Program-made: the position numbers and the translations under genes
DNA from: Thraustochytrium sp. TN22
Lineage: Eukaryota; Sar; Bigyra; Thraustochytrida; Thraustochytriidae
Assembly: GCA_013306675.1 (NCBI GenBank)
Contig: JABLUY010000368.1
Location: forward strand, 1 to 25,968
DNA length: 25,968 nt
Reading direction: 5' to 3'
Notes under the pieces: model-generated
What the model was told of the DNA's origin: nothing
The model's database searches: none
What the model saw: the letters and a program-made list of their open reading frames with translations, nothing else
Part shown: positions 728 through 22,800 of the stretch, one piece after another
Numbering within the stretch: position 1 is the stretch's first letter
How the letters are laid out: each line of letters begins with the position of its first letter

Positions 728-3700
728 TTACACTACGAAGCTGCCCAGCCTGCGCCTGCGCCTGCTTGAGCTGCGCCGGATGACCGGCTTCTTGTTCCGG
801 CTCCGTCTGTTGTAGCCCTCATCCGAAAATCCGCTCAGAACGCTGCTGATGTCCGAGAGGTCGTCATCTTCGCTGTCGCTGTCGCCGTAGCTGAAACTGC
901 TGCTGCTGCTGCTAACCTCGCTCAAAAGGTCGTCCACGTCTTCATCGCTTGACTCACTGCCGAAGCCACTTAGCACACCGTCCTCAAAGCTCGCGTCACT
1001 CAGGTCCGACAGGTCATCTTCGCCCGAGGTATCCTCGTCCTCGTCGTCCGTTGGCCACCACGTGCGGTAGAGATCCTGCACGCCGACGAAGTCGAGGATA
1101 CGCACGAACTTGGCGTCCTCCTTGTCCTCGAGGCCGTTGCCGTCTCCTTCTTCGTCCGAGAGCAATTCGTCCACGTCGCTGTCCGCGGATACCATCGAGA
1201 TGCCCGACATGCGCCAGAGTGCCTTCCGGGCACCCTTTCCGGCGCTCCGCCGCCTCCTATGGGGTTGCCGCACCGTGATGGGCGCAGCGGCCACACGCTG
1301 ACGACGCCTCACCGCAATGGGCGCGGCGGCCACGTGCGGGCGCCGCACCGTCGCAAACGGCTCCGTCTCGGCGGTATCGCGCCGACGCCGACGCGGCGAC
1401 GATACATCCACGTCGCTGCGCCGACGATGCTTGCGCCGCGACGGCGCCGAAGGCTTGCTGCCCAGGTCGTCCTCGCTCTGTGGATACTTCTTGCGCCGTG
1501 CCGGTGAGGATGATGACGGCGACGACGACTTGGAGCGCTTGGCCTTGTCGCGGCGAGGCGACGGCCTGCGGCGAGGCGACGGCCGGCGGCGAGGCGATGC
1601 CCGGCTGCTCTTGTCGCGCGGGCGTTCGGGTGACGCCCGGCTGCTCTTGTGCGGGCGGCGCGACCTGACGTGGCGCGACGAGTCGTGATGCGAAGAAGCC
1701 TCGTGCGAGGAGTTGTAGCGCGACAAAGCTTCGTGCGACGAGGCTCGACGCAGCGGAGGAGGGTGGCGTGACGATGCGTGGCTTTCCACGTCTTCCTCGT
1801 CGGACTGGCCTTCGTCGTCGCTATGGATGCTGAAAGCGCCCAAACTCATGTCGTCATCAGCGCTTGCCTCGTCGCCCTCGAGCCCGTGCTCAGAGACCTC
1901 TTCCTCTTGCAACTGCGTCGACTTGCGGCGAGACGCCGGTGCCGCCGCCGCGCCTCCACGATGGGCGGCGGACACAACACTTGCCGTGCGACTCAGACGT
2001 TTGCTGAGCCGCGACAAGCTCCGTTCTCGACTGCTGGGCTTGGCCTCGTCGTGCTTGTTCGAGTGGTGGCTTGCCCGTGACGCGCTCCGGCGTCGCGTCT
2101 CCTTCGTGTTGGGAACTGCGGCGGCCTGGGACGCAGAGGCCTTTTGCACTTTGGTCTTTTGCGCCGTGGTCTTTTGCGCCGTGGCCTTTTGCGCCGTGGT
2201 CTTTTGCGCCGTGGTCTTTTGCGCCGTGGTCTTTTGCGCCGCGGCCTTTTGCGCCGAGGCCTTGGGTGCCGCGATCTTGGTCGTCCCGGCCTTGTGCGCC
2301 GTGGTCTTGTGCGCCGTGGTCTTGGGCACTGAGGTTTTGGACGCAGTGGCCTTGGACTTGGGCGCCGCGTCCTTGACCTCGGCCTCGGGGTCCACGTCCT
2401 CAGGGTCCACGTCCTCAGGCGTGCGAGATAAGGAACGACGGCCCCTGGTGAGGCGGGCCAGGCTTTGGCGCGCGCGACTCGTAACGCTGGCGCGCGGGGC
2501 AGGCTCATGGTCCACGGGCGGAGGGGTGGCGCTGGCACGACTCGCGGCGCGGTGGCGGCGGTCTTCGTCCTGAGTCGCGTGAAGGCTCTGACGCTTGATA
2601 CTCTGGCGCTTGATGCTGCGGCGCTTCTGGATGCTGCGGCGCTTGGCGGCGGATGATGATGAGGTAGCAGCACCCTTGAGCGCGAGACGATTGACGAGCG
2701 CGTGCATGAGGTCCTTGAGCGTACCGTCGCGGAGATCGTCCTCGATTTGCTGGGCAGAGAGACCGGTGAGGTGGGCGTCGAGCGCGGCAAGGTCGGTGTG
2801 GAGCTGTGGATACTCTTCGCGAGCTGCTGTGAGTGCAGCCTCGAGCTCCTGCACGTCGTCCTCGAGGTCCTTGAGGTCGCTGGTTGAAAGAACACGGCTG
2901 GACTGGCGATCATGGGAGCGCGGCGCGGGTGTCTTGGCACCCTCGCAGAGCTCAATGCGCCAGCGCAGGTCCTCCTCGCACTCGCACAGCTGATCAAAGT
3001 ACATGCGCGAGGCGACGAAGCGTGGGATGAAGGCGACCTGGCGGTCAGAGTCGGGCCCGAGGCAGCGCTGCACGAGGGAGAGCGCGAGGTCGAGCGTAGG
3101 CTGGATGAAGTCGAGCAGAAAGGCGTCGCGGCCATCAAGCAGGGTGATGGCACCGCGGAGGTCGTCGAGAACCTGGCGCATACTGGCAGACCTGCGCTTG
3201 ATCACCTGCATCTTGTCGAGCGCCTCGACGAGATTGTCGAGCAGCTCGGTGACTGCGCTCTCGGCGGGCGCCAGGGAGCGCATGGACTGGCGCAGCACGC
3301 TGACGCGCTTTTGCGCGGCCGCACGACGCTCCTTGACCGCAGCAGGCGTCGGCGTGGGTTTGGCTGCGACGGCGGAGGGCGCAGCGCCGCCCAGATCGCT
3401 GGCGTCAGTCGTGGCGACGGCGGGACTGGACGTAGGGCGCGCCTCGCGTTGCTGGCGTGGCGCGGCGCCGGACTCGTCCTCGAGCTCGGCCTCGAGGGCG
3501 GCATTTACATCGTCCATGAGCGAGCGGATCAGGGCCTCCGTCTCGCGCCAGCCGACACGTGCAGCGGCGCGCTCTGCCTTGCTAACCGCCTTGGCGCCCG
3601 GGCCAGAATGTTTGGCCAGGAAGCTGCCGAGCTTGCGATGAATCTGCTTTGTGTTGGCGTCCTGCGTTGAGCGAAACGTCTTCTTCTTGGCGGCCGCGGC

Positions 3701-6700
3701 CACGGATGGCGCCATGGAGCGCCGGCTGCGGCGCCTGTCCACGAGAACCTTGGGCGGGACCTTGAGCACGCTAGGAGGCGGCTCTTGCTTGTGTAGGTCC
3801 TCCGCCACATCCTCCGCCTCCTCCTCCTCCTCCTCCTCCTCCTCCTCCTCCTCCTCTTGTTGCGGTGGTTCAACCTCTTCGACCACTGGCTTGGGACGCG
3901 GAGGCGGCGCGGGCGGCGCGAAGGAGACCCGATGCTCTTGCGCCCCAGGGAGACGAGACGGGAGTGGAAAGGCCTTCGGCGCTGGCTCCGCTCGTGGTTG
4001 TGGCGGCGCTGGCGGCGATTCGCTGCGCTCTTCGACAGACTCCAGGCGCGACGGTAGAGGCTTCAGACGCGAAGCGCGGGGCTTGGCGCCGGCAGCAGCG
4101 TCATCGAGGCCCTGCTGCTCCGCGACGCCGGACTTGCGGCGCGAGATGCGCATGCTGCTAGCTCGCTTGGACAGGCGCTTCATAAGACTGCCGCGCTTCG
4201 GCTCGGGCTCCGCCTTCGGCGGCGGCGGGATTGCGACCATGGGCTGCGGTTTGGCGCCAGCGGAGGCATCGCCCACGGCCTGGCGCGTGGCGCACTCGCG
4301 GCCAATGGCGTAGCGCTGATGCATGGGGATGCCTGCCAGCCTGAGGGGCTCGGTGTTGCCGGACTCGGCCGTGGCAAGCGAGAAACCGTGCTTGAGCGCC
4401 TCCTCGAGCTTGTTGAGGACGCCCATATCAGTGAAGACACCCGTGATGAGCGCGCGCTCCTCGGGCGAGATGGCCGATGAGTCCGCGGCCGGCACGACCG
4501 CTGGCGCGGGCGCAGCCGACTTGCTCCCGCTGCGACTTCGAGCAAGGCTAGCCCGAGGCGCAGGGGCGGACGACTTGCTCCCGCTACGGCTCCGGACAGG
4601 GCTGACCCGAGGCGCCGGCGCCGCCGACGCGGGCTGATCCGCATCTGGTGACCAGGACTTGCACTTCTTCACGATCAACATACGCTTGGTCCAGGCCACG
4701 CCGGCATCCTTGAGGTGCTTCATCGAGCCCTTCTTGCCCTCGGCCATGGAGAAGCCCAGCTCCAAGGCCTCCTTGAGATGCATGTCTGCATCGGCCTCCG
4801 CAAAGATCGTCTCGAGCGCCGCTCGCTCTTGGTCCGTAGGTTGGGCTGCAACATCGCGGCGACTGCTGCTTCGTGCCCGGACTGGCGCTGTTGACTTGGC
4901 GGCTGGCGCAGGCGCGGCAGGCTTGGAGAGAGTGCCGTTCTTGTCCTGGCATGCCTTGAGGATCTTGAAGCGTGTCGCCATGTTGATGCCAGCTTTCTTG
5001 AGCTCCACGTGCGAGCCGCCCTGGCCTACCTCCAAGGTAAAGCCTTCGGCGCACGCGGCCGCGAGCTTGTCCGCAGCACCGGCTTCCTCGAAAATGGCGG
5101 TCAACACCACATCCTGGGCAGCAGCGCCGCTCTTGCGCTTGCTGCTCCGTTTCGACGCCGGAGCCGCAACTTCAGCAGGCATGGTCATGGTTCTCGAAGC
5201 GGCAGCGGGCGCAGCTGCAGCCGAAGCCGAAGCAGGCGGAAAAGACGCAGGAGCGGCGGATGTAGCTGGCGCATCGCCGTCCGCTCTGCATGCTTTGAGG
5301 ATGTTGAAGCGCATTGGCATGGGGATGCCTGCCGCCTTGAGCTCCTTGTGTGAGCCCGTCTTGCCTAGCTCCAGGGTGAAACCAGCATTGACCGCCGCAT
5401 CAAGCATGTCTCTCTGCCCGCAACTTTCAAAGATGGCCTCGAGTGGATCTGAGCTGCTTCGCTTGTTGCCACGTTCGCTCTTGCGTTCGCTCTTGCGTCC
5501 GCTCTCGCGTTCGCTCTTGCGTTCGCTCTTGCGTTCGCTCTTCCGAGACTTCTGGCTCCTTTTGCTACTCTTGCTCCTGGCACTGCTCGTGCTGCTGGCA
5601 CTGCTCTTGCCGCCGTCACTGCTCGTGCTGCTGGCACTGCTCTTGCCGCTGTCACTGCTCGTGCTGCTGTCACTGCTCTTGCCGCTGTCACTGCTCGTAG
5701 ACCGAGTGCGCTTGCTCTTACGTTTGGATCGACTCGTCGTGCTGCGGCGAGAGCCAGAGCTGCTCTTGCTGCGTCGCTTGTCGGCGCCATCAGGAGCACT
5801 CCAAGCCTTGCACGCTTTGATGATCTCGAAGCGCTTGTTCTGTGGGATGGCGGCCTCTTTAAGCTCTTTGTGCGAGGAGCTGCGGCCGAGGTCCATGGTG
5901 AAGCCGGCGTCGATGGCGGCATCAATCTTGTCGGCCACTCCCGCCTGCTCAAAGATGGGGCCCAGGGCAGCCATCTCATCGACCGGGCGGGCGCTGCTCC
6001 GAGAGGAGCCACGGCGACTCCTGCTCTTGCTCTTGCGGGACTTGCTCCGGGTCCTACTCTTACTCTTGCTCTTGCTCTTGCTCTTGCTGCGGCCACGACT
6101 CCGAGCCTGGCTCCGGCCTCTGCTGGTACGATGCGGGGCGCTGCTTCGAGGCTTGCCTTCATCAGCGGTGTGCGCATTACAAAGACGGAGAATCTTACCG
6201 CGTTTGTCTATGGGGATTCCCGCGTCCTTGAGCTCCTTGTGCGAGCCGCCCTTGCCGACTTCCAGGGAGAAACCGGCGGCCAGAGCGTCCTCGAGCTTGT
6301 CGTGGACACCAGCCTCCTCGAAGATGGCCACGAGAGGGTCGTCCTCACCCCTTTTGCTCTTGGTGGACTTGATCCTGTCGTCGGCCATTTTGCCCTTGGC
6401 AGCGACAAACGACTTGCGGGCATCGTCGAGGTCATCGTGGCCGTCACTGTCGCTGTCGCTGCTGGCGCGACTGTCGTCACTGTCGCTGCCGATGCTGGTC
6501 TGATCAGGGGGCTTCCAATCCTCGCATGCCTTGACGACTTTGAACTGTTGAACACGGTTGAGACCGACCTTGCGCAGAATGGTGCGCGAGCCGCGCTTTC
6601 CAACATCGATGCTGAAGCCGTGCTCGATGGCAGCGTCGAGCATGTCTGCAACCTCGGCCTTTTCGAAGATGGGACCAAGCGCGGCCATTGTGTCGGGCGG

Positions 6701-8338
6701 CTTGCGACGGCGCCGTGACGTACGGGTCTTGCTGGATTTGCTGCTTGTGCTCTTCGTGCTGGCGCGCTTGGAGCCCTTTGTGCTTTTGGAGCTATCACGC
6801 TTGGAGCTCTTGGAGCTATCACGCTTGGAGCTCTTGGAGCTGGCACGCTTGGAGCTCGTGGAACTGGCACGCTTGACGCTCTTCGTACTGGCACGTCCGG
6901 CGCGCTTGGTGCTCTTGGAGCTGTCTCTTTTCGTGGCGGAAGGCGCCTTCTCGGTGCTGAGGTCGCCTTCCCAGGCTTTGCACTCGCGAAGAATCGCAAG
7001 ACGCTTGACAAAGGGGACTCCCGCATCGGTGAGTGGCTTCGAGCCGCCGTTGGCTTTCGCAAGGGAAATGGAGAAGCCGAGCTCGAGCGCGCGGTCCAGC
7101 TTGTCGAGGGCTTCTTGATCTCGGAAAATGTCCTGGAGCTTCTCGTACGCGGTTTGGCCCGTCTGGACTGGCTTAGCGCCGACGCGCGTGGCGGCGGGCT
7201 TCGCGCTGACGCGCGTGGCGGCAGGCTTAGCGCTGGTCCCGGACTTGACGCTCGTGGGCTCCGCAGCGGGGGGGGCTTCCTTGCAGGCCCGCAAGATCTT
7301 GAAGCGGGCAGCCAAAGGCACGCCAGCGTCGCTGAGCTCTTTGTGCGAATTAGCCTGGCCCTTGGCCAGAGTAAACCCACGCTCGAGGGCGGTGTCGAGC
7401 AATTGGGGGACACCCTGTGCCTCGAAGATGGCCTCGAGTGTCGCCCGATCCGGATCCTTGCCCTTGGCCGACTGCCGTGGAGGGCGGCGTGTCTCCGGCT
7501 CGCTCCCACCGCTCTCCGAGTCACCGTCGGTCGCCTCTTCGGCGGGCGCCGGCGCGCTGCTCGCGCGTTTGGTGGACTTGGCGGACTTGGAGGAGCGACT
7601 GCTCGAGCGATCGCCGGCCGTCTCCGGGTTGACGTTGTACCAAATGACCTTGACAGCCTTGGCGAAGTTCCTGGTGGCCTCGTCAGCGGTGGACTTGCGC
7701 TCGACCTCGGGGGCAAGCGCGTCGAGGAGCACCCTAAAGTCCCCCCGCAGGTTGCTCTCACGGTCCCGCAGGTCCTCGTCGATCTCATCTGGATTGAGCT
7801 TGTCAAGGTCGGCGAGGAATTTCTGCAGGCTTGCCTTGAGTCTGGGCGCGGTAAAGTCGTCCTTGGCGGACCTGACGGCCTTGCGCAGATTCTTGACATC
7901 ATCCTCGAGATCGCGCTCGTCCTTCGGGCTGAGGTCGTCTTCAGACTCGGCATCGGAGTAGCCGCCGATATTGTCTTTATCGCCGATTCTGTCGACCTGG
8001 TCATCAAGCTTCTTCTGAACATGACACAGCCGACCGAAGTACATTCGCGAGGCTGCGAACTGCAGAATGAAGACGGCGTGTTTGTCCTTCAGGTCCTCCG
8101 GGTTGCCCATGTTGCCACTGCAATACGTGAGAACATCCACGAGGTCCGTCAGGTCCGTCAGCAGGGACTGGCTCCTGAGCTTGAGCAGGCTCTTGCGCTC
8201 GCGCGCATCGTCCAGCGCCTCGCGCAGCTCCTCCAGCACATCCAGCACGTCGGCCGCGCGCTTCTTGAGCACGGGCAGCGCCCGCAGCAGCGCCTCCGCC
8301 TCGCCCAGCTTGTCATCCAGCTTGCCATCCAGCGCCAT
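728..8338 (-). CDS. Giant SAM-like-repeat, RS-rich protein of unknown function (~2,536 aa)
   Basis: I do not recognise this protein. In order it shows: a helical domain (about 10-232) with the motif FAASRMYFGRLC; nine ~55-residue modules (about 299-1350) with the consensus IFEEAG-x2-D-x-L and GF-[ST], then SHKELKDAGIP-x3-RFKILKAC; a Pro-rich segment with RRxS sites and a run of 14 Glu (about 1490-1510); a second, divergent copy of the first domain (about 1675-1890, FVASRMYFDQLC); RRSI/KRQSI repeats; an AQKTT pentapeptide array (about 2000-2070); an Arg/Ser and SPRRRP region; and an acidic, Ser-rich C-terminus. The module ends resemble the last helices of SAM domains, so a scaffold or self-associating role is my inference. 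No kinase, RNA-binding or transmembrane segment is seen. The frame is open to a Met at 8728, but I chose the Met at 8338 (MALDGKLDDK), because the upstream 130 residues are Arg/Ala-rich translation of GC repeats. No intron is needed across 7.6 kb. Confidence 0.8.
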   Translation of the reverse strand: MALDGKLDDKLGEAEALLRALPVLKKRAADVLDVLEELREALDDARERKSLLKLRSQSLLTDLTDLVDVLTYCSGNMGNPEDLKDKHAVFILQFAASRMYFGRLCHVQKKLDDQVDRIGDKDNIGGYSDAESEDDLSPKDERDLEDDVKNLRKAVRSAKDDFTAPRLKASLQKFLADLDKLNPDEIDEDLRDRESNLRGDFRVLLDALAPEVERKSTADEATRNFAKAVKVIWYNVNPETAGDRSSSRSSKSAKSTKRASSAPAPAEEATDGDSESGGSEPETRRPPRQSAKGKDPDRATLEAIFEAQGVPQLLDTALERGFTLAKGQANSHKELSDAGVPLAARFKILRACKEAPPAAEPTSVKSGTSAKPAATRVSAKPAATRVGAKPVQTGQTAYEKLQDIFRDQEALDKLDRALELGFSISLAKANGGSKPLTDAGVPFVKRLAILRECKAWEGDLSTEKAPSATKRDSSKSTKRAGRASTKSVKRASSTSSKRASSKSSKRDSSKSSKRDSSKSTKGSKRASTKSTSSKSSKTRTSRRRRKPPDTMAALGPIFEKAEVADMLDAAIEHGFSIDVGKRGSRTILRKVGLNRVQQFKVVKACEDWKPPDQTSIGSDSDDSRASSDSDSDGHDDLDDARKSFVAAKGKMADDRIKSTKSKRGEDDPLVAIFEEAGVHDKLEDALAAGFSLEVGKGGSHKELKDAGIPIDKRGKILRLCNAHTADEGKPRSSAPHRTSRGRSQARSRGRSKSKSKSKSKSRTRSKSRKSKSRSRRGSSRSSARPVDEMAALGPIFEQAGVADKIDAAIDAGFTMDLGRSSSHKELKEAAIPQNKRFEIIKACKAWSAPDGADKRRSKSSSGSRRSTTSRSKRKSKRTRSTSSDSGKSSDSSTSSDSGKSSASSTSSDGGKSSASSTSSARSKSSKRSQKSRKSERKSERKSERESGRKSERKSERGNKRSSSDPLEAIFESCGQRDMLDAAVNAGFTLELGKTGSHKELKAAGIPMPMRFNILKACRADGDAPATSAAPASFPPASASAAAAPAAASRTMTMPAEVAAPASKRSSKRKSGAAAQDVVLTAIFEEAGAADKLAAACAEGFTLEVGQGGSHVELKKAGINMATRFKILKACQDKNGTLSKPAAPAPAAKSTAPVRARSSSRRDVAAQPTDQERAALETIFAEADADMHLKEALELGFSMAEGKKGSMKHLKDAGVAWTKRMLIVKKCKSWSPDADQPASAAPAPRVSPVRSRSGSKSSAPAPRASLARSRSGSKSAAPAPAVVPAADSSAISPEERALITGVFTDMGVLNKLEEALKHGFSLATAESGNTEPLRLAGIPMHQRYAIGRECATRQAVGDASAGAKPQPMVAIPPPPKAEPEPKRGSLMKRLSKRASSMRISRRKSGVAEQQGLDDAAAGAKPRASRLKPLPSRLESVEERSESPPAPPQPRAEPAPKAFPLPSRLPGAQEHRVSFAPPAPPPRPKPVVEEVEPPQQEEEEEEEEEEEEEAEDVAEDLHKQEPPPSVLKVPPKVLVDRRRSRRSMAPSVAAAAKKKTFRSTQDANTKQIHRKLGSFLAKHSGPGAKAVSKAERAAARVGWRETEALIRSLMDDVNAALEAELEDESGAAPRQQREARPTSSPAVATTDASDLGGAAPSAVAAKPTPTPAAVKERRAAAQKRVSVLRQSMRSLAPAESAVTELLDNLVEALDKMQVIKRRSASMRQVLDDLRGAITLLDGRDAFLLDFIQPTLDLALSLVQRCLGPDSDRQVAFIPRFVASRMYFDQLCECEEDLRWRIELCEGAKTPAPRSHDRQSSRVLSTSDLKDLEDDVQELEAALTAAREEYPQLHTDLAALDAHLTGLSAQQIEDDLRDGTLKDLMHALVNRLALKGAATSSSSAAKRRSIQKRRSIKRQSIKRQSLHATQDEDRRHRAASRASATPPPVDHEPAPRASVTSRARQSLARLTRGRRSLSRTPEDVDPEDVDPEAEVKDAAPKSKATASKTSVPKTTAHKTTAHKAGTTKIAAPKASAQKAAAQKTTAQKTTAQKTTAQKATAQKTTAQKTKVQKASASQAAAVPNTKETRRRSASRASHHSNKHDEAKPSSRERSLSRLSKRLSRTASVVSAAHRGGAAAAPASRRKSTQLQEEEVSEHGLEGDEASADDDMSLGAFSIHSDDEGQSDEEDVESHASSRHPPPLRRASSHEALSRYNSSHEASSHHDSSRHVRSRRPHKSSRASPERPRDKSSRASPRRRPSPRRRPSPRRDKAKRSKSSSPSSSSPARRKKYPQSEDDLGSKPSAPSRRKHRRRSDVDVSSPRRRRRDTAETEPFATVRRPHVAAAPIAVRRRQRVAAAPITVRQPHRRRRSAGKGARKALWRMSGISMVSADSDVDELLSDEEGDGNGLEDKEDAKFVRILDFVGVQDLYRTWWPTDDEDEDTSGEDDLSDLSDASFEDGVLSGFGSESSDEDVDDLLSEVSSSSSSFSYGDSDSEDDDLSDISSVLSGFSDEGYNRRSRNKKPVIRRSSSRRRRRLGSFVV
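2140..2345 (-). repeat. 15-bp coding minisatellite (AQKTT pentapeptides)
   Basis: The plus strand shows a 15-bp period with unit TTTTGCGCCGTGGTC and small variants. On the coding strand this gives pentapeptides of the A-Q-K-T-T, A-H-K-T-T and A-P-K-x type, around residues 2000-2070. The central copies are almost identical at DNA level, which points to recent slippage or unequal exchange. The reading frame is kept. Confidence 0.9.
2669..3316 (-). other. Helical domain, copy B, of the giant protein
   Basis: Residues about 1675-1890 repeat the plan of copy A: VTELLDNLVEALD, FVASRMYFDQLC, a Ser-rich loop, KDLEDDVQELEAALTAAREE and QIEDDLRD. The identical residues cluster in the ASRMYF-x2-LC, DLEDDV and EDLRD-type motifs. 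It is followed immediately by basic RRSI/KRQS repeats. Confidence 0.72.
3808..3855 (-). repeat. (TCC)n trinucleotide run encoding poly-Glu
   Basis: A near-perfect CTC/TCC run on the plus strand codes for 14 consecutive Glu in the giant protein, between the last SAM-like module and domain copy B. Such a tract is prone to length change. Confidence 0.9.
5450..5560 (-). repeat. 12-bp repeat encoding KSER units
   Basis: Repeated GCTCTTGCGTTC-type units on the plus strand encode tandem K-S-E-R tetrapeptides in the linker before module 6 of the giant protein. One copy has drifted to E-S-G-R. Confidence 0.85.
5570..5700 (-). repeat. 36-bp repeat encoding 12-aa Ser/Asp/Gly/Lys units
   Basis: A 36-bp period, nearly identical between neighbouring copies (about three and a half), encodes the unit STSSDSGKSSDS and close variants. 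It is in the same linker as the KSER repeat, directly before module 6 in protein order. It is a coding minisatellite with no unique spacers. Confidence 0.85.
7643..8311 (-). other. Helical domain, copy A, of the giant protein
   Basis: Residues about 10-232 are rich in Leu/Asp/Lys and look alpha-helical. Landmarks are VLDVLEELREALD, FAASRMYFGRLC, a Ser/Asp-rich loop, RDLEDDVKNLRKAVRSAKDD and EIDEDLRD. The same landmarks return in the same order in copy B at 2669-3316, which shows this is a real duplicated domain and not random low complexity. Confidence 0.72.
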
Positions 8339-9833: not shown

Positions 9834-10446
9834 TTACTTGAAGAACTTGCCAAACTTGCCAAACTTGCCAAACTTGCCGAACTTTCCAAACTTGTGCTTG
9901 TGGTGCTTGTAGCCCTTGTAGCCCTTGTGTTTGTAGCCGCCGCCCATGTGCTTGGGAGGCTTGTACTGTTGCGTGGTGCGCGCGATCCTTCACATTAGTC
10001 TGCGAACCACCCGGCCTCGTTGTCGGCCCGTCATGCGGACAAGGACAAGATAAACGTACGCCATGGGCGTGGCCCGCAGGGCCCGCGTAGCCCGGCCCCG
10101 GCGGCGCGTAGACGGGCTGCGGCGGGCCGTGGTGGCCGTAGGCGCCATAAGCGCCTCCCGGCGGCGGCGGCGGGCCCTGGTGGTGGTGGTGCTGCTGCGG
10201 CGGCGGCCCCTGGTGGTACTGCTGCGGCGGCTGCTGCACGTTCACGTACACCGCCGTCTGCCGCGGCGGCACGTAGGCCGCCGCGGGCGCCGGCGCGTAC
10301 TGCTGCTGCGGCGGCGGCGCTTGCGGCGCCTGCTGGTACCCCGGCGGCTGCGCGTAGGCCGGCGGCGCGCTGGCCGAGGCGCCGATCGCCTGCTGGTAAA
10401 TGGCCTTGCCGGCGCTCGCCTGCGCCGCGTACGGGTTGTACGCCAT
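9834..10446 (-). CDS. Small Gly/Pro/Tyr-rich protein with (KFG)n tail, two exons
   Basis: Exons are 10060-10446 and 9834-9965 (minus strand), giving 172 residues. The N-terminal part (MAYNPYAAQASAGKAIYQQA) leads into a Pro/Gln/Tyr/His-rich region with PPGYQQ, YAPAPAAAYVPP, QQHHHHQGPPPPPGG and YGAYGHHGPP. The second exon starts YKPPKHMGGGYKHKGYKGY, followed by repeated KFG units and a final FFK. This plan (XYPP-like front, Lys/His/Gly-rich tail with KFGK repeats and a basic-aromatic end) resembles plant GPRP proteins and similar protist proteins, whose function is poorly known. The charge and repeat pattern suggest an intrinsically disordered protein; any role in membrane binding or condensate formation is inference. 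The start is the only Met before the conserved-looking front, and a GCGCC repeat lies just upstream. Confidence 0.8.
9966..10059 (-). other. Spliceosomal intron of the small Gly/Pro/Tyr-rich gene (94 nt, phase 0)
   Basis: On the minus strand it begins GTACGT and ends CGCAACAG, with a branch-site-like CTAAT about 30 nt before the 3' splice site. Without splicing the frame reads into an unrelated Gln/Val-rich sequence; with splicing it joins HAHG to YKPPKHMGGG and the regular KFG tail, ending in TAA at 9834-9836. No polypyrimidine tract is seen. Confidence 0.85.
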
Positions 10447-10862
10447 GCTCCCCGCCGCGCCGCGCCGCGCCTGCGATGCGGAGCGAAGCGTTGCTGATGG
10501 ATTGCCCGCCCCCGGCCGCCGCGCGGGCTCGTCTCGGACTCTCGGCCGCCGCCTCCGCGCCGCGGCGTGCCCGATCTTGGCGGATATCCTCGACCGCGGC
10601 GCAAAGCGGCGCAACGGGCAAATGGGCCTCTTTTCAAACGGTCACGGGGTTCTCGCGGTTCGAAGAGCAGGGAGGGCCGCCAGCGCGCAGCGCGGCGCGG
10701 CGCGGCGCGGCGCGGCGGCGCGGGCAGATCGCGCTGCAGCGCGGCGACGGGCAGCGCTCGCCTCCCCTGGCCTCGCCTCCCCTTTTCTCCCGCTCGCCGC
10801 GAGCTCGGTCGGGCCGGGTCGGCGCGGCGCGGCGCGGCGCGGCGCGTCTTTGGGTGTCAAGC
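10447..10862. promoter_or_regulatory. Divergent spacer between the Gly/Pro/Tyr-rich gene and DYNC2H1
   Basis: This 416-bp spacer serves two divergent genes. Three (GGCGC)n blocks are present: 10452-10471 next to the minus-strand start codon, 10690-10717 in the middle, and 10821-10846, which ends 17 bp before the dynein ATG. Both flanks therefore carry the same motif on their own coding strand. The dynein frame is open through the spacer, but its translation is Ala/Arg low complexity. No TATA box is evident. Confidence 0.55.
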
Positions 10863-13800
10863 ATGGAGGATGAGGTCGTGCAGTGCGCGCTGGGCCTGCT
10901 GGGCGCGCGCGGGGAGGACGAGCGGCGGCCCGAGGCGGACGAGGAAACGCGCGCGACGATTGCGAGGTTCCTGGGCGATGCCAAGGTGCGGAGCCTGCTG
11001 GTCAGCTGGGACGAAAACGCAGGCGCGCTGGGAGCCACGACGGAGGTGGAGGACACGCTGCGGTCCAAGCGCGCGCAAAAGGGGAGCGTAAGGCTCGCGG
11101 GCTTCGTCAAGAAGACCTGCGGCGCCGTGGGCGACGTGAGCCGCGACCTGGTAGCTACCAGCGGCTGCTCCGTGGAGGACTTGTACTATTGCCTGCATGA
11201 AGTGTACGGGCCCGCGGCCGGCGGGCCGGCTCGCGAACTCGTGAGCCGGCTCGACGACGACCTGCGCGAGGTGGTCTCGTCGCAGGGCGTTCTCGGGCTT
11301 GACGAGGAGCTCCTGCACTGGGAGAACCAGCGCAAGGGTAAGGCGGTGGCAGCTGCCGTGCGCCAGCTCGCCGAGGCGGCGCGCGTGTCGCCCTCGGAGC
11401 TCGTGGAGGTATGCGGCACGGCGCTGCACGAGCTCCCAGACGCAGGCTATCCTGCGGACCGGCTCAAGGCGCTCGTTGGCGTGCTCGAGGCGCAGCACGT
11501 CTTTGGGGGCTTCGCCGCCGATCCTGCCGCAGACTTCGGCAGCACAGGTGGCGGCAGCGGCGGCAAGACCCCCTCCGCCTACGCCTCCTCCTCGTCCTCC
11601 GTGTGGGAGCTCTCGCGGTCTGCCCTGCAAGAGGGCGTGCGCGTCGCCACCCAGTGGGTCTCGCTTTTGGAGGAGCTGCGGCTCGAGACGGCCTCGGCGG
11701 CCAAGCTCCTGCAGCGCCTCGAGGACGTCGCGCGCGTTCGCACCACGCAGGAGGAGCTGCGGCGCCTGCTGCCGGACGAAGCGCACGAGGATGACGACGA
11801 CGAAGGAGGCGAGAGCGTCGGCGACAGCAACAATCGCGATGAGGTCGCCGAAAGCAAGACGGCAGGGACGCGGCGGTCCGCCATTGCCTCGCTCTTCGCG
11901 TCCGACAAAGCCTGGGACAGCGCGTTGCTGCGGTTTGAAAGCCGCTTCTCGCAGCTGGAAAAGGCGGTGGCCGGCAAGCTGCGCGCGCGCCTCGCCTCCG
12001 TGGGGCCAGAGCGTATGCTCGGTCTCTTGGTGCAGTACAAGACAGTGATGATGCGCGGGCAGCTGCGCGGCATGCTCATGGCCGAGCGCGAAACAGCGCT
12101 AGCTGGCATCGCGCGTACCGTCGATGAGATGGAGGCGGAGTTCGAGGCGCGCAGCGGTGCGCCGCCGGCCACCAAGGCCAACACCTCGCCCACGCTGGCC
12201 GGCGTGGTGTGGGCCAAGCAGCTTCTGGGCGCGCTCGACGCGCTTACCGAGACGCTGCGCGAGCTCTTCGACGAGATGGACGCCTGCGAACGCGTGCTGG
12301 AAAATGCACGCGCGCTGGCGGCGCGCATCGAGTCGTGGCAAGCTGACCTCTTTCGCGAGTGGTGCGCCGACGTGGACGAGGACTCCAACGAGCTCGGGCT
12401 CTCGGGCCAGCTGCTGGAAATCGACTTGGACGGCCTCCTTCGTGTCAACTTCTCAGAGCGCCTGGTCACCTTGCTGCGCGAGGTGCGCCAGTTCACCGAG
12501 CTCGGGCTCAAGGTGCCTTCGCGCGTGCGCGACCTGGCCAAGCGCGCCGAGCAGCTGTACCACCATGGCGTCATGCTCAAGAAGACGGCGATGCTCTTCA
12601 ATTCCATGGAGGCGCAGATCATCCCGTCGCAAAAGGCCATGCTGCTGGACGCCCTGGTCGAGTTCGAGACTCAGGTCACGCAGCACAAGACGGTGTGGGA
12701 CGAGCGGAGTGACCCGGCCGCGTGCCGCGCGTACGTGAATCAGCTGCGTCGCGCCGCGGACAAACTCACCAGCGAGAACCGGCAGCTACAAAAGGCGCAC
12801 GTTGCGCTGGGCCAGCTTACTGTGCAGCTCATGGACATTGACCTCTTGAGGCACGGCGAGCGCTGGCGCGCGCAGTGGGGCAAGATGACGGCGCTCGTGA
12901 ACCGTCTCGAGGCCGCCTACCCAGCGAAACGTATGCGCGCTTGGAAGGAGCACTGGGACCACCAGGTGTACAAGGCGCTCGAGGCCTCGTATCGCATGGG
13001 GCTCGAGTCGCTGAACGAGCAGTTGGGCGAGATCAAGGCAGAGGTGGTCTACGCCGGCTCCTCGCGCGCCGTGCAGTTCCGTCCGCCGCTTGAGGAGCTA
13101 CGCGCCGCCTACTTTCGCAAGATGAGGCGCTTCATTGCCATCCCGGCCGCCTTCGAGGGACTGGGCGGTGCTTCGCGAGGCCTCTTCACCAAGATGGCCG
13201 ACCGCAACGCCGACGCGCTCGTGCAGGTGTACTGCAAGGCGGACGACCTCTTCTCGCGCCTGGAGCAGGTGTGCGCAGACCTCGCGCCGCACGTCGCGCT
13301 AGCCCGCGTCGCCGACCTCGATGCGCTCATCGAGCACCTGCAGCTGTCGTCCGCGTCCGATTTCGAGGTCAACCTCAAGGCGCTCAAGGCGCGGCGCAAG
13401 GAGGTGGACAAGGTCCAGGACTTTTGCAAGGTCGACTGCTTCGCGCTGAGCACCGTGCCGCTCAAGATGGCGGCGCAGGATCAGCTGACGCGCCTGAGCG
13501 ACGCGCTCCTGCTCGCGCTGCGCCGGAGCGTGCTGTCCGCGCTGCACGAGGTCGACCAGTACCTGGACGCTTCCATGACGCGGCTGAGCACGCGGCCTGA
13601 GACCATTGCGCAGATCAGCGAGGCGACGGCGGAGTGGAACCGCATTGCAGAGGCCAAGCCGGCGCTCAAGCTGCGCTGGGACCGCGCCGAGCCGGCGCGC
13701 AAGCTGCTGCTTACGCACAGCGAGCAGGTCGACGTCTCCGAGGTGCTGGAGGTGCACGCGCGGCTGCCGGCACTTTGGGAGAACTTTGAAGTGGCACTCT

Positions 13801-16800
13801 TGGCGTTTGAGGACATGGTCCAGGATCAGCGCGAGGCGCTAAAGGCGCGCGTGGACGACGATGTCGAGGCGTGTCGCCAGCGCATCGCGCAGTTCGCCTC
13901 GCGGTGGACCTCGCTCAAGCCGGATGCCGCGGCGCTGGACTGGTCGCAGGACGCTGCCGTGGAGGCTGTTCTGGAAGAGCTCAACGAGTGGGCCGAACAG
14001 TTCGCCGAGGTGGACCAGGCCGCCGCGGAGTGCACCGCGAACTGCGAGCACTTCGAGCTGCCGGCACCGGCCTTCGAGGCGCTCGACGCCGTGAAGCGCG
14101 ATTACGAGACCGCCAAGGCGGAGTGGGACAGCTTTCGCGGATTCAAGCAGGACCTGGACGCGCTGCGCGCGCAGGACTGGCTCTCGTTCCGCACGAAGAT
14201 CTACGACGCCGAGGACCTTGCACGCAAGTGGCTCGACAGCTTCAAGGGCCAGGCGCGCGGGCCGGTGCTGGACCACGTTGCGGCTGTCTGTGAACAGCTG
14301 CGCAGGGCCGTGCCGGCGCTCAAGTTCATGCGCGGCGAGCCATTCAAGGAGGAGCACTGGTCGACGCTCTTCCGCAAGCTGGGCATCCCCAAGACGGTCT
14401 CGCTGCAGAACCTGTGTTTCGGTCACTTTGCCGATGTCCTGGACGCCGTTGCAGACAATCTGCAGTTCGCCAAGGACATGACAGCGCGCGCGCAGGGCGA
14501 GGTGACGATCCGCGAGGCGATTCTGGAGCTCAAGGCGTGGGCCGAGACGGCGGCCGTGGAGTTCATGGACCACGAGGAGGACGGCCGCGTGACCCCGCTC
14601 ATCAAGAACTGGCGCGATGTGCTCACGGAGCTGGGCGACAACCAAAGCCTGCTGGCGTCGCTCAAGGAGTCGCCCTACTACAAACCGTTCGAGCAGCAGG
14701 CCGCCGTGTACGAGCACCAGATGGCCGATCTGGACGCATGTCTCGGCATGATGAAGCAGGTACAGCGCAAGTGGCTCTACCTGGAGCCGATCTTTAACAA
14801 AGGTGCGCTGCCGGCGGAGGCCGGCCGGTTTCGCCGCATCGATGAGGACTGGGTGGACATTATGCACAAGCTGGCGGCGGACCCGCGGCTCTTCGCGCTC
14901 TGCGACGAGTCCTCCTTCCCGCGCCTGCGAGACACGCTCACCACGGTCTGTGACCAGCTGGAGCGCTGCCAAAAGGCCCTGGCCGACTTCCTCGAGGAGA
15001 AGCGCAGCCGGCTGCCGCGCTTCTACTTCATCGGCGACGACGACCTGCTGGAAATTCTCGGCCAGGCGCGCAACCCGGCTGTGATCCAGTCGCACCTCAA
15101 GAAACTCTTCCAGGGCATCCACTCGGTGCGCTTCAGCGAGGACGGCGCCTCAAGCATCGAGGCGGTGTGTTCGAGCGCCGGCGAAGAGGTCCGCCTTGAG
15201 CGGCCCGTGGCCGTGACAGATCGCGTGGAGGACTGGCTCCAGGAGCTGAGCGACGAGGTGCGGCACACGCTGCAGGTACAGCTGGTGCGATGCGTGCACG
15301 AGAAGCAGGTCTCGCTGGGCGCCTTCCCAAGCCAGGTGCTCTGCCTGGCGGAGGCCATCAAGTTCACCTCGCGGTGCGAGCACGCCATCAAGCAGGACAA
15401 GGTGGGCTCGCTCAAGAAGCTGCTGCGCAAGACGTTGCACGGGTACACGAGCGCGCAAGACCTGGATGCGCTGAGCCAGCTCAAGGTGAAGGCGCTGATT
15501 CTCGACCTCGTGCATAAGATTGCGGTCTGCGAGGAGCTCGAGGAGGCCGGCGTCACATCAACGCAGGACTGGCACTGGGAAAAGCAGCTGCGCTACTATC
15601 TGACACAGGACAACGCCTGCGTGGCGCGCATGTGCGACGCGGAGATGCGATACACGTACGAGTACTGGGGCAATGCGCCCAAGCTCGTGCACACGCCGCT
15701 CACGGACAAGTGCTACCTGACGCTGACGCAGGGCATGCACATGGGCTTTGGCGGCTCTCCGTACGGCCCGGCTGGCACGGGCAAGACGGAGTCCGTCAAG
15801 GCGCTGGGCGCCTGCCTGGGTCGCCAGGTGCTCGTATTCTGCTGCGACGAGGGCCTCGACACGCAGAGCATGGGGCGCATCTTTACCGGCCTGGTCAAGT
15901 GCGGCGCGTGGGGCTGCTTCGACGAGTTTAACCGCCTCAAGGAAGACCAGCTCTCGGCCGTTTCGCAGCAGATCCAGGTCATTCAGGCCGCGATCAAGGC
16001 CAAGTCGCGCGAGGTGCGGCTCCTGGGCAAGCCGGTCGACGTCGACCCCAACGCCGGCATCTTCGTCACCATGAACCCGGCCGGAAAGGGCTACGGCGGT
16101 CGCTCGCGCCTGCCGGACAACCTGAAGCAGCTCTTCCGGCCGGTGGCCATGTCACGCCCGGACAATAACCTCATCGCCGAGGTCATTCTCTATGCGGAGG
16201 GCTTCGGCGAGGCGCGCACGCTTGGTGAGAAGCTCGTCTCGCTGTACGCGCTATCGCGTCAGCTGCTCAGCCCGCAGCAGCACTACGACTGGGGGCTGCG
16301 CGCCATGAAGGCGGTGCTCAACACGGGCGGCAAGCTGGTCGCGTCCGCAAAGCGGCGGCAGGGCGGCGAGGGCGGCGGCTCGGCCGCGGCTCTGGACCCG
16401 GACGAGGAACGCGCGCTGCTGATCCAGGCAATCCGCGTCAACACGCTCTCAAAGCTGACCTTCGAGGACACGCGCGCATTCGAGGGGCTCATCCGCGACG
16501 TCTTTCCCGGGACGCGTAGCGCCGACGTAGCGGACGCGGACCTGGAGGAGGCGATCCGTGCGGTTATGACGGAGGAGTTGAAGCTCGTGCACAACGAATC
16601 GCAGGTGCGCAAGATGCTGCAGCTCAAGGAGTCCCTGGACCAGCGCATGGGCTGTGTCGTGGTGGGGCCCAGCGGCTGCGGCAAGACGACGCTGTGGCGC
16701 GTGCTGCGCGCTGCGCTCCAGCGCACCGGTGCGCAGGTTAAGGTGTACGAGATGAACCCCAAGGCGATGCCGCGCGAGAGGCTCTTGGGCCACATGGACA

Positions 16801-19800
16801 TGGACACGCGCGAGTGGTTCGACGGCGTGCTCACGGATGCAGCGCGCCAGGTCGTCAAGGAGCCCGCCGAGGTACGGTCGTGGATTGTGTGCGACGGCGA
16901 CGTGGATCCGGAATGGATCGAGTCGCTCAACTCGGTGCTGGACGACAACAAGCTGCTCACCATGCCGAACGGCGAGCGCATCTCCTTTGGCGCGAACGTG
17001 AACTTCCTCTTCGAGACGCACGACCTGCGTTTCGCCTCGCCCGCCACGGTCTCGCGCATGGGCATGATCTTCCTCTCGGACGAGGACGTCGATGTGCGTC
17101 GCCTCGTGCAGTGCTGGGCGCCGGCCATGCCGGAGTCTTTCTTTCGCGCGCTGGACTATGTGCGCTCCCGCGTCGGTGACCGACAGGTGGTGGACACCAC
17201 GCTGGTGGGCACCGTGCGCAACGGACTCTCGCACGTGGCCAAGGTGGACCCGGAGGACCAGGCAGCGTACGTGGCGGCGCTCGTGCGCGGTCTGGGCGGC
17301 AACATGACCGTTGGCGAGCGTGAGGACTTTGCGCGCTTCGTCTATGAGCTCGTGGGCGAGGCGACGCCCTCGTCGCGGCGGCCGCTGGACTGCTTCGCGG
17401 ACCGCGGCGTCCTCGTGGCATACGGCGGGCGCAGCGAGCTGGAGGGCGACTTTGCTCGTCTCGGTGCGAGCGGCGCCATCATCCAGACCGTCTCGGTGCA
17501 GCGCAACCTGGACCTGATCGCGCCGTGGATGCAGGCGATGGAGCCCTTCATCCTGGTGGGCCCGCCAGGCTGCGGCAAGACGATGCTGCTCTCGCACTGC
17601 TTCCGGCTCGCGGCACGATCCACGGCCGTGACGACGCTGCACTGCAACGCGCAGACTACGGCGGCGCACGTGATCCAGAAGATCGATCAGGCGTGCTCGC
17701 TGTACTCGACGCCGTCTGGCCGCGTGTACCGGCCGCGCGAGGCAGAGCGGCTCGTGCTCTACCTCAAGGACATCAACCTGCCCAAGCCGGACCAGTACGA
17801 CACATGCATGCTGGTGGCCTTCTTGCAGCAACTGCTCACCAGCAAGGGGTTCTACGACGAGCACCTGGAGTTCTTGGGCGTGGAAAATGTGCAGATTGTC
17901 GCGTCCATGAACCCGGCCACGACCGTCGGGCGGCACGTACTCTCGTCGCGGTTCACGGCGGCTATGCGTATCGCATACGTGGACTATCCGGACGAGGAGG
18001 AGCTGGTGACAATCTTCACCTCGATTCTGGAGACGGCACTGCGCGACACGCGGGCCACGACGAACCTGCGCAAGCTGGCCGAGAGCATGGTGTCCGTGTA
18101 CCGCGAGGTGAAGCAGCGTTTCTCGGTGGACGAACAGCGGCACTACCAGTTCACGCCACGCGACCTAACGGAGTGGGTTCTGGGCATGCTGCGGTACGAC
18201 GACCCAGAGCTCCTCGACGTCTTCGCGTACGAAGCGGCGCGCATCTTCCGCGACCGCCTCGTGGACGAAGCGTCCAAGACGGCCTTTGACAACTTGCTGG
18301 CGAATGTGCTGCGCAAAGAATGGCAGCACCGCGTGGACCGTGGCGCGCTCTTCAGCTCGCTCGGCCAGGACGCTGGCGCGCCGCTGCTGCGCACGACGGC
18401 GGAGGACTTTGAGGCGACCGTGCAACACGGCCTCATGATGTACGAGCGCGAGGAGAGCGAGCTGGACATCCGGCTGTTCCCGGAGATGCTAGAGAACCTC
18501 GCGCAGGTGGACCGCGTGCTGAGCGAGGAGGGCGGCTCGCTCCTGCTGGTGGGCCGCAGCGGCGTTGGTCGGCGCACAGCGGCGATGCTGGTGGCGCACA
18601 TGCGCAAGATGCGCTTCATGACGCCGACGTGCGTATGGCAGAACAAGCGGCGCGCGTTCGCGGCCGACCTGCGGCGCGCCATCGAGTCGGCCGGCGTGGA
18701 GGGCACCGACACGGTGCTGTACGTGGAGGACCACCACCTGTTCGCGGACAGCGTGCTGGAGACGGTGAACTCGCTGCTGTGCAGCGGCGAGGTGCCCGGT
18801 CTGTACAAGCCGGAGGAGCTCGTGCCTCTGGTGGAGTCGGTGCGCGAGGCGATGCAGGACGAGTCGGCCTCGGGATCACCGTACGAGTTCTTTGTGCGCC
18901 GCGTGCAGCGCAAGCTGCACGTGTGCGTGTCGCTGGACCCGACGAACGAGTCCTTCCTACTGCGGTGCGAGAGCAACCCGGCGCTGTACAACCGGTGCTC
19001 GATCCTGTGGTTCGGCACATGGGCCGGCGACACGGTACGCGCGTTTCCCGGGCGGCTGCTCCCGGCCTTCTTCGGCGCCGAGGCGCCCGAGGACTGGGAT
19101 GTGGAGGCGCTGGAGGCCGCGGCGGCTGCCGTGCACGGCACGGTGAGCGGCGCGACGCCGCGCGAGCTAGTCTTTTTGCTGCGCAGCTTCCAGGCTCTGT
19201 ACGAGGGCAAGGCGGGCGCAATCCGCAAGAAGGTGGCGCAGCTGGTGGGCGGCCTGGAGAAGCTCGAGGAGGCAGCCGCAACTGTGGACGACCTGGGCAC
19301 CAAGGCGGTGGACCAGCGTGCAGAGCTGCAGCAAAAGCAGGCGGCCGCGGACGCGTCCATGGACGAGATCACCGAGGCGCTGCAGCTGGCGAGCAAAACG
19401 CGCAAGGAGACCGAGACGCTGTCGGAGGAGCTCAAGAAGGCGGAGGAGGAGACGCTGGCGCGCAAGTCCAAGATCGAGGAGGAGCTCTCGGAGATCCAGC
19501 CTGTCCTGGAGAGCGCGAAGCAGGCGGTGGGTCAGATCAAGTCGGAGAACCTCAACGAGCTGCGCAGCCTCAACACCCCGCCCGAGCCGGTGCGAGACGT
19601 GCTCAGCGCGGTGCTCATGCTGTTGGGCATCCGCGACACCTCGTGGATGTCCATTAAACGGTTCCTGGGCAACCGCGGCGTGAAGGAGGACATTCTGAAC
19701 TTTGACACGCACCGCATCACCACAGACATCCGCTCGCAGGTGATGAAGCTGCTGCGCAGCAAGGGGTCATCGTTTGAAAAGGCGTCCATCCAGCGTGTGT

Positions 19801-22800
19801 CGGTGGCGGCGGCGCCCATGGCGGCCTGGGTGAAGGCGAACGTGCGGTACAGCCTGGTGCTGGACAAGATTAAACCGCTCGAGGAGGAGCTTGAGGAGGC
19901 ATCGCAGGCGTTGGAGGCTGCCCAGAAGCGCATGAAGGACTGCGAGGAGGAGCTGGAGGAGATCGATGTCCGTGTCAAGGAGCTGCAGGACAACTTCAAG
20001 CGCACAACCAAGGAGGCCGCGCAGCTGGACGCCAAGCTGCAGGACACCGAGGAGGTGCTGGCCAAGGCGCAGACGTTGCTGGACAAACTGGGTGGCGAGA
20101 AGGAGCGCTGGGCCGACCAGGCCGCCGTCCTGCAGCGCGCCACCGGCACGCTGCCGCTGCGCATTCTGCTGGCTGCCGCCTTCGTCACCTACCTGGGCAA
20201 GGAGCCGGAGCAGAAGCGCCGCGCGATGCTGGACCAGTGGACGCGTCTCGTCAACACACACCAGGCGGAACGTCGTGACAACGATGAGGATGAGGATGAC
20301 GAGTTGAAGTCGCCGGACCGCGGTCACCACCAGCGACGGTCGCATCGCCAGCATCAGGCGCTGGAGGCCTTCGAGGTGCTTGAAGTGCTGAGTTCTGAGT
20401 CGGAGATGCTCGTATGGAAGGCGCAACAGGGTCTACCGGGGGATCAGCTGAGCATGGAGAACGCGGCGCTCATTGTGAACAACGCGCGCACTCGGTGCCC
20501 GTTCGTGGTCGACCCGGCGAGCGCCGCGGCAGGCTGGCTGCGCAAGTACCTGGGCAGCTGCGAGGGCGTTCCATTCGAACTGGTGGCTGCGCAGGACGCC
20601 CGCTTTGTGAACCAGGTGGAGCTTGCAGTGCGGTTCGGCAAGACCCTCGTCGTGCTGGAGGCGGACGGTGTGGACCCCATGCTTGTGCCTTTGATTCGGC
20701 GCGATCTGCGTCGCCAGGGCCCACGCTGGGTCGTGCAGATTGGCGAAAAGACGCTGGACTACAACGAGGGCTTCCGACTGATGCTGGTGACGCGCAACCC
20801 GCAGCCGTTGCTGCGGCCGGACATGGCGGCCTTGGTGAACGAGGTGAACTTCACGGTGACGAGGTCCGGCCTGGAGGGCCAGCTGCTTGGCGTTACGGTG
20901 CAGCACGAGCAGCCGGAGCTGGAGGAGCGCAAGTCCGAGGTGCTGCGCGAGGAGGAAGATCTCAAGGTGCAGCTGTCGGACCTGGAGCGCGAGCTGCTAG
21001 ACACGCTGGCGGCCAGCGAGGGCAACCTCTTGGAGAATCAGACCTTGCTGGACACGCTCACCAAGACCAAGGAGAAGAGCGCTCACCTGTCGACGAGCCT
21101 GGAGGCATCGGCGCGCGTTTCGGAGCAGCTCGACGCGGAGCGCGACCAGTATCGCGCCTTCGCGCAGGCCGGGTCGGCCGTGTACTTTTCGCTCGAGGCG
21201 CTCGTGCATGTGAACCACATGTACCAGTTCTCGCTGCGATCGTTCGTGGACCTATTCCGCGATACGCTGGCCAGCGCGGCGCGCGACGAGGACGGGCCGG
21301 TGGAGGCGCGCATGGAGAAGCTCGTGGCGGCGCTCGAGAAGCGCGTCCTGGAGGTGTGCTCTCGCGCGCTCTTCAAAGCGGATCGCCTCATGTTCGCCAT
21401 GCACCTCGTGCACCAGCTGCGCCCGCACCTCTTCCAGCGCGGCGAGTGGGCCGCCTTCGTGGGCGAGGCGTCTTCCTCCTCCTCCTCCTCGGAGGCCTCC
21501 GCTGCGGACGACGAAGGCAAAAAGCACGGGGACGGCGAGGACGAAGCCAAGGGCGGCGAGAGGGGCGGCCTTCCGAGCTGGGTGGCGGCGGACCGCGCCG
21601 CGGACTATGGCCATTTGCGCACTGCGCTGCCCCGGCTCACGCTAGATCTGAGCTCGGACGCCTGGGCGCGGTGGGGCCGTCACGCCGAGTGCGAGCGCGT
21701 GGTGCCGGCCGAAGCGCGGCTCACGGGCTTCCAAAAGGTCTTGGTGACGCAGGCACTGCGGCCGGACCGCCTGGAGGCCGCCATGTCGGGCTTCTGCTGC
21801 GACGCTCTGGACGTGGAGTCGCTCGCGTTTGCTCCAGCGTCCATTGCGCAGCTGGCCGCTGTGGCCAAGAGCCGGCCGCGGCCGCTCCTGCTCATTGCTA
21901 CGGCTGGTGCGGACCCGAGCAAAGAACTTGAGGAGTACGCCCGCGAACAGGTGGGCGCCGAGCGATACCATGAGCTGGCCATGGGCGGCGGCCAAGCGGA
22001 GGACGCCCTGGCGCTGGTGCGCGAGGCGGCGCGCGAGGGTTACTGGGTCTGCCTCAAGAACCTGCACCTCGTGTCGTCGTGGATCCCGCGGCTCGAGAAG
22101 GCGTTCAACGCGCTCGAGTCGCCGCACGACGACTTTCGGCTCTGGCTCACGACCGAGGAGACACGTGAGTTCGCGCCCATCCTCCTGCAACAGAGCATCA
22201 AAGCGACCTTTGAGGCGCCGCCGGGCATCAAGAAGAACCTGCAGCGCACGTACGCGTCCTGGGCCGGGTCGCCGCAGCTCTCCTCGGGGGGCGATGTGCA
22301 GGCGCGGCTCATGTTCTTGCTGGCGTGGATGCACGCGCTGCTGCAGGAGCGGCGCACGTACATCCCGCAGGGCTGGACGAAGTTCTACGAGTTCTCCCTA
22401 GGCGATCTGCGGTCCGGCGTCGGCGTGGTGGCGCTTGCAGCCCAGGAGGCCGAGGTGGACTGGGCATACATTCGCGGGCTCATGGAGAACGCTGTGTATG
22501 GCGGGCGCATTGACAACCCCTTCGACCTGCGCGTGCTCCGCGCGTACTTGGAGGAGTACTTTTGCGAAGAGAAGCTGCGCGGCGACCGCCTCACGGATGA
22601 GTTGACCATTCCAGAGCCGGACGAGGTGGACGAGTGGATTGCGCGGCTCGACGATGCGGACGCTCCGGCGCTCTTTGGCCTGCCGCCCAACGTGGAGCGC
22701 TCAGTGCTGCGCACGCGCGCTCAGGCCACGGTGGCGGCGCTCAAGTCGCTCGCGGCGCACGCCGGCGCGGCGGCCAGCTTCGACCGCGCGCTATGGCGGC

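Follow-up and report, generated by a model that had tools for sequence, protein, structure and literature searches.

The genome of Thraustochytrium sp. TN22 (assembly GCA_013306675.1; 37.9 Mb in 453 contigs) encodes a family of proteins that combine a domain termed A here, a RIPK-like pseudokinase and arrays of SAM domains. The protein of 2,536 amino acids studied here, whose gene is located on contig JABLUY010000368.1, is a kinase-less member of this family. The window that we analyzed is this whole contig (C297, 25,968 bp). An earlier note, made from the letters of this DNA alone, had described a giant protein of about 2,536 residues without naming a strand. The reading frame is indeed intact and lies on the minus strand; it runs from an ATG at position 8338 to a stop codon at 728-730 through 2,536 uninterrupted codons, is part of a frame that stays open over 2,684 codons, and faces several in-frame stops on the plus strand of 728-8338. 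The assigned start is supported by the N-terminus of a paralogue, MSSLDGRIDGKL, which aligns with MALDGKLDDKL of the window protein.

Nine SAM-type modules and a duplicated domain

The window protein contains the following elements; the modules were located by search and aligned, and each is supported by its left-out profile score.

728..8338, minus strand: whole gene of the putative multi-SAM scaffold protein, 2,536 aa, a single open frame
7634..8323, minus strand: domain A, residues 6-235, N-terminal and family-defining, 51% identical to A of the paralogue C277a
7274..7447, minus strand: SAM module 1, residues 298-355
6971..7147, minus strand: SAM module 2, residues 398-456
6515..6688, minus strand: SAM module 3, residues 551-608
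6170..6340, minus strand: SAM module 4, residues 667-723, the modelled module
5801..5974, minus strand: SAM module 5, residues 789-846
5279..5449, minus strand: SAM module 6, residues 964-1020
4940..5110, minus strand: SAM module 7, residues 1077-1133
4652..4822, minus strand: SAM module 8, residues 1173-1229
4283..4456, minus strand: SAM module 9, residues 1295-1352
2678..3259, minus strand: domain B (duplicate of A), residues 1694-1887

The nine modules, each 57-59 residues long, share a mean pairwise identity of 42% (range 26-60%, 36 pairs). When each was left out in turn and scored against a profile of the other eight, all nine reached 53-86 bits, compared with 5-15 bits for the best of 1,000 shuffles, and the nine copies of one module that the earlier note had seen are therefore genuine. 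To relate them to known domains, we built a profile from 12 of 19 pattern-caught SAM repeats of the same genome (C39a 1076 was excluded, as were three near-copies and three repeats of window-like or intermediate type); these repeats sit in frames that are Pfam-positive. Comparison of this profile with the window modules by hhalign gave 91% (E 1e-6), against at most 12.8% for 40 shuffles. Used as a 12-row HMM, it matched the window protein with an overall E of 2.7e-9, with five of the nine modules reported singly (iE 2e-4 to 7). The predicted model of module 4 is all helical, with five helices (pLDDT 96.6), and a fold search with it returned SAM domains in 42 of the 50 solved matches listed and RadA/Rad51 in 8; Tric1 was the top structural match, and the tankyrase SAM was also among the best. 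None of the nine modules (0/9) is recognised by the SAM models of Pfam, which do match frames of the relatives. In a sequence search of the PDB, the module profile found nothing better than E 0.28; three mS41 chains (E 0.96-1.1) aligned with it in the region of the KELKxAGI segment. Taken together, profile comparison and the predicted fold indicate that the modules are SAM domains that have diverged beyond Pfam's SAM models.

At E ≤0.1, Pfam gives the window protein a single match, HicA (21.5 bits; cut-off 27), which was also found in one of nine modules searched singly (E 0.027). HicA has an alpha/beta fold. We rejected an identity as HicA toxin because the score lies under the cut-off and the module model is all helical.

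Domains A and B (each about 200 residues) are 32% identical over 173 aligned columns (E 7e-20), and the A profile finds B again, in agreement with the claim that a second domain is present twice. In an alignment of nine of the ten A copies of the genome (the C39a copy was excluded, since its A domain spans two loci), identity to the first row was 19-51%, and the averaged hydrophobicity showed a helical periodicity at 100-105 degrees (z 4.9 at 100) and none at strand angles; domain A is, on this evidence, probably helical. Searches of the nine copies against Pfam yielded no convincing family, and MLKL_N and HeLo were absent from the 25 of 29 families listed. PDB sequence matches of A plus B (best E 0.01) and of the nine copies (best E 0.001, a lectin chain) were weak and are not believed. 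The MLKL_N model, run against this genome, matched only contig C9 at E 0.1; this weak match (G000:C9:77048-77323, minus strand, 16.7 bits, under the cut-off) lies in a frame of 681 aa.

A pseudokinase family with SAM arrays

Single-protein searches of the genome placed relatives of the modules on contigs C277, C60, C39 and C2, and a domain A with 51% identity on C277. We then searched iteratively with an A profile a set of 1,038 open stretches of at least 100 codons from 45 of 75 loci (30 overlapping loci were excluded) and obtained 10 A copies in eight frames: two each in the window protein and C277a, and one each in C277x, C277c, C277d, C39a, C39b and C60. The E-values of this search apply to this small set, some copies joined only in rounds 2 to 4, and the count is to be read as at least eight frames of the genome. 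A helicase frame on C383 (L032/L044) appeared at E 0.02 in round 1 and was lost in round 2, and L053 on C300, whose iE stayed at 0.02, was excluded from the count.

In all of these A frames except that of the window (7/8), both a protein kinase domain and a SAM domain score above the Pfam cut-offs. The aspartate of the HRD motif is replaced by N or H in 7/7 family kinases (six detected by pattern, the seventh by alignment), and the DFG aspartate is retained in four of the seven. A second pattern caught seven further kinase frames in this genome, all of them with HRD. Of the family kinases, that of C277a was the one searched against the PDB; its nearest match there is RIPK1 (E 7e-14). Neither Pfam nor a profile of the family kinases (best E 0.04, -0.1 bits) finds a kinase in the window protein. 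We therefore reject an overlooked kinase domain and describe the protein as a kinase-less relative. The interpretation given in the earlier note is partly supported by these data; it had missed the pseudokinase family of the same genome.

Counted with three profiles, which were trained partly on the same family proteins, the SAM-type domains number 9 in the window protein, 12 in C277a, 12 in C60, 7 in C39a, 6 in C39b, 6 in C277x (the last cut at the locus end), 5 in C277c, 2 in C277d and 20 in a frame on C2 that contains neither A nor a kinase:

L041:780-8678 (contig C2:24279-32177), minus strand: 20-SAM frame with 18 ordinary, one intermediate and one window-type domain

The SAM domains of the C2 frame are independently supported by Pfam (SAM_2, 209 bits; SAM_1, 197 bits). 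In a control search over the 1,038 stretches, the SAM profile picked out 14, and every one of these belongs to the family or to loci fetched by Pfam SAM_1 or their neighbour. Module 6 of the window protein has its nearest match outside the window gene in C277a module 1 (71% identity). Four A-pseudokinase-SAM genes form a tandem cluster within 18 kb on the plus strand of C277 (L046, L038, L037; about 176-194 kb). Outside this genome, no relative was confirmed among 111 and 5 pattern matches in viral contigs (0/111, 0/5), nor in prokaryotic genomes (0/36) or phages; we claim no absence from other protists, since no eukaryote collection was covered.

A short C-terminal stretch, YQLGQMVRFRGANSRIANNELGRIIQ in C277a and beta-rich in appearance, is shared after the SAM arrays of L037:404-5980 (plus), L041:780-8678 (minus) and L038:1-1524 (plus); it was not noticed in the window protein.

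Linkers, duplications and neighbouring genes

The eight linkers between the modules are 39-117 residues long, and their description as RS-type holds for three of them (31-40% Ser, 30-37% Lys plus Arg) but not for the five others, which are milder (10-25% Ser, 11-19% Lys plus Arg), one of them being acidic (net -4). A basic region with an acidic tail follows domain B:

6689..6970, minus strand: Ser/Lys/Arg-rich linker between modules 2 and 3, residues 457-550, 32% S, 33% K+R, net +24
5975..6169, minus strand: RS/SK-rich linker between modules 4 and 5, residues 724-788, 31% S, 37% K+R, net +20
5450..5800, minus strand: RS/SK-rich linker between modules 5 and 6, residues 847-963, 40% S, 30% K+R, net +23
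731..2677, minus strand: basic, RS/SP-rich stretch of low complexity with AQKTT repeats, and an acidic tail

Searched against the rest of the genome, the final 168 residues of the protein gave no match below E 0.15. Since three linkers carry net charges of +20 to +24 and the charges of the modules stay close to zero (-2 to +2), the data favour the linkers rather than the modules as the charged, phosphorylatable element. These linkers are similar to those of SR proteins, which join an RRM to an RS domain; Pfam finds no RRM in the window protein, and we do not assign it to that class.

Smaug and Vts1 SAMs and the N-terminal domains of Rad51 bind nucleic acid. With its basic, SR-like linkers and its SAM/HhH-like modules, the window protein might likewise bind RNA or DNA or belong to splicing speckles, and the charge of the three linkers, the RadA/Rad51 folds among the structural matches listed and two weak sub-cut-off matches to splicing-linked families in a linker stretch of the relative L046 would fit such a role, as would the finding that a mutation breaking the SAM oligomer of Tric1 also abolishes RNA binding (excerpt of PMC11063897). 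We regard this role as unlikely, given that the modules themselves are almost uncharged, that the only Pfam match is HicA and no RNA-binding domain, and that signalling is suggested by the kinase folds on seven relatives.

The codons of the window gene bear on the age of its repeats. Between the modules, identical residues are encoded by the same codon in 51% of 847 pairs, against 49% expected from the codon usage of the gene; for A and B the value is 29/65 (28.5 expected). Because synonymous sites are saturated and yet mean identity is 42%, the module duplications are old, with residues retained since, and the selection on the modules that the earlier note had deduced is borne out in this respect. 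Window A and C277a A share 74 of 114 codons (51.4 expected), and their split is, by this measure, younger than the module or A/B duplications. The further claim that modules are conserved and linkers are not could be followed in C277a and C2, whose terminal arrays are almost identical: it holds for length (389 codons and 0 gap columns in domains; 325 codons and 56 gap columns in linkers) but not for dN/dS (0.44 in domains, 0.40 in linkers).

Such equal ratios, the recent exchange or duplication evident from these near-identical arrays, the low complexity of the linkers and a degenerate module in C277a (18 bits) would fit a little-constrained repeat expansion with weak or no function, in which slippage and unequal exchange multiplied the modules and linkers of a GC-rich genome. 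For the window gene we hold this to be highly improbable: residues were kept between modules with saturated synonymous sites, every left-out module scored at least 53 bits (9/9), and the frame is stop-free over 2,536 codons.

The divergently oriented neighbour of the window gene encodes a dynein heavy chain by Pfam (10020-23564, plus strand, one open frame of 4,514 codons), the closest solved relative of which in the PDB is cytoplasmic dynein 2 (DYNC2H1). Beyond it, on the minus strand, lies an amino-acid transporter gene (Pfam) truncated by the contig end. On C2, a myosin frame (L042:583-6600, minus strand) with two SAM-type domains after the motor and a PH match under the cut-off sits 1.8 kb upstream of the 20-SAM gene on the same strand. 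SAM-scaffold genes hence stand beside motor genes twice, possibly by chance.

Relation to known systems and proposed function

Several SAM domains per chain, with roles in scaffolding and oligomer formation of the kind we propose here, are also found in animal proteins (liprins, SARM1, CASKIN, ANKS1, SASH1); in the excerpt of a recent review, the liprins are the only group with three SAMs, the most named (PMC10252437). The window protein has nine and its C2 relative 20, so that the window protein exceeds the animal multi-SAM proteins in the excerpted text of that review (PMC10252437). It also differs from them in having linkers of 39-117 residues where the SAMs of the animal proteins mostly stand in close tandem, and in its domain A, since no such domain is named for them in the excerpt (PMC10252437). 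According to excerpts of two sources, SAM domains form head-to-tail homo- or hetero-oligomers (PMC10252437, PMC11063897), and the SAM of Tric1 assembles as a helical oligomer (PMC11063897). The modelled module shares its predicted fold with the SAMs of Tric1 and tankyrase, which were among its best structural matches. Both of these proteins have a single SAM per chain.

Among protists, a Plasmodium protein, pTKL, resembles the relatives of the window protein: it is a TKL pseudokinase that also carries a SAM, through which it binds another protein, and it has been proposed as a scaffold. It differs in having one SAM and MORN motifs, with no A domain named in the excerpt (PMC6544628). The window protein itself is devoid of a kinase. 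The Phytophthora infestans kinome, as excerpted, lists SAM on two kinases, one STE and one TKL (PMC3019232), and the word "SAM" is absent from the text on the Dictyostelium kinome. The relatives also resemble the RIPK/MLKL module: a domain that is probably helical stands at their N-terminus and is joined to a dead kinase, which in C277a is RIPK1-like. In the sequence searches described above, the MLKL_N model gave no match to A. MLKL is not known to carry SAM domains. Among the open-licence papers listed in our literature searches, none with the window architecture was seen; known parts are arranged here in a new way, and the family to which the protein belongs is larger than the earlier note could see.

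Since the window protein possesses nine SAMs and two A copies and its relatives share both parts, the simplest role for it is that of a multivalent cross-linker. We consider it reasonably probable that it is a kinase-less SAM scaffold that co-assembles with the pseudokinase relatives. Its nine modules would dock with SAMs in their own chain, in further copies of the protein and in pseudokinase members, A and B may pair with the A domains of the latter, and the protein would thereby cross-link them into a cluster or polymer, the assembly of which could be switched by phosphorylation of the Ser/Arg linkers.

Alternatively, A and B might bind the relatives, at their A domains or their pseudokinases, and cap or inhibit them, the SAM array merely concentrating the protein. 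The 51% identity of A to that of C277a in the absence of a kinase would suit such a competitor, a pattern that may commonly mark dominant-negative paralogues; nine long-kept SAMs and two A copies suggest cross-linking over capping, and we find the competitor doubtful. The scaffold reading can be carried further, into a proposal to which we give little credence, namely that the family is an independently arisen protist counterpart of a RIPK/MLKL-type signalosome. The helical A domain would then be the effector or oligomerisation element, the dead RIPK-like kinases the switches and the SAM arrays (up to 20 domains) the polymer, with the window protein as a kinase-free nucleator whose valence of nine sets the size of the assembly.

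One genome thus offers a natural valence series of 2, 5, 6, 7, 9, 12 and 20 SAM-type domains, with 9 to 20 on one chain and 2 to 12 fused to dead kinases. This series lets one ask what number of docking modules must be present in a scaffold for polymerisation or condensation, and the family lets one ask how a kinase-free paralogue tunes pseudokinase assemblies.
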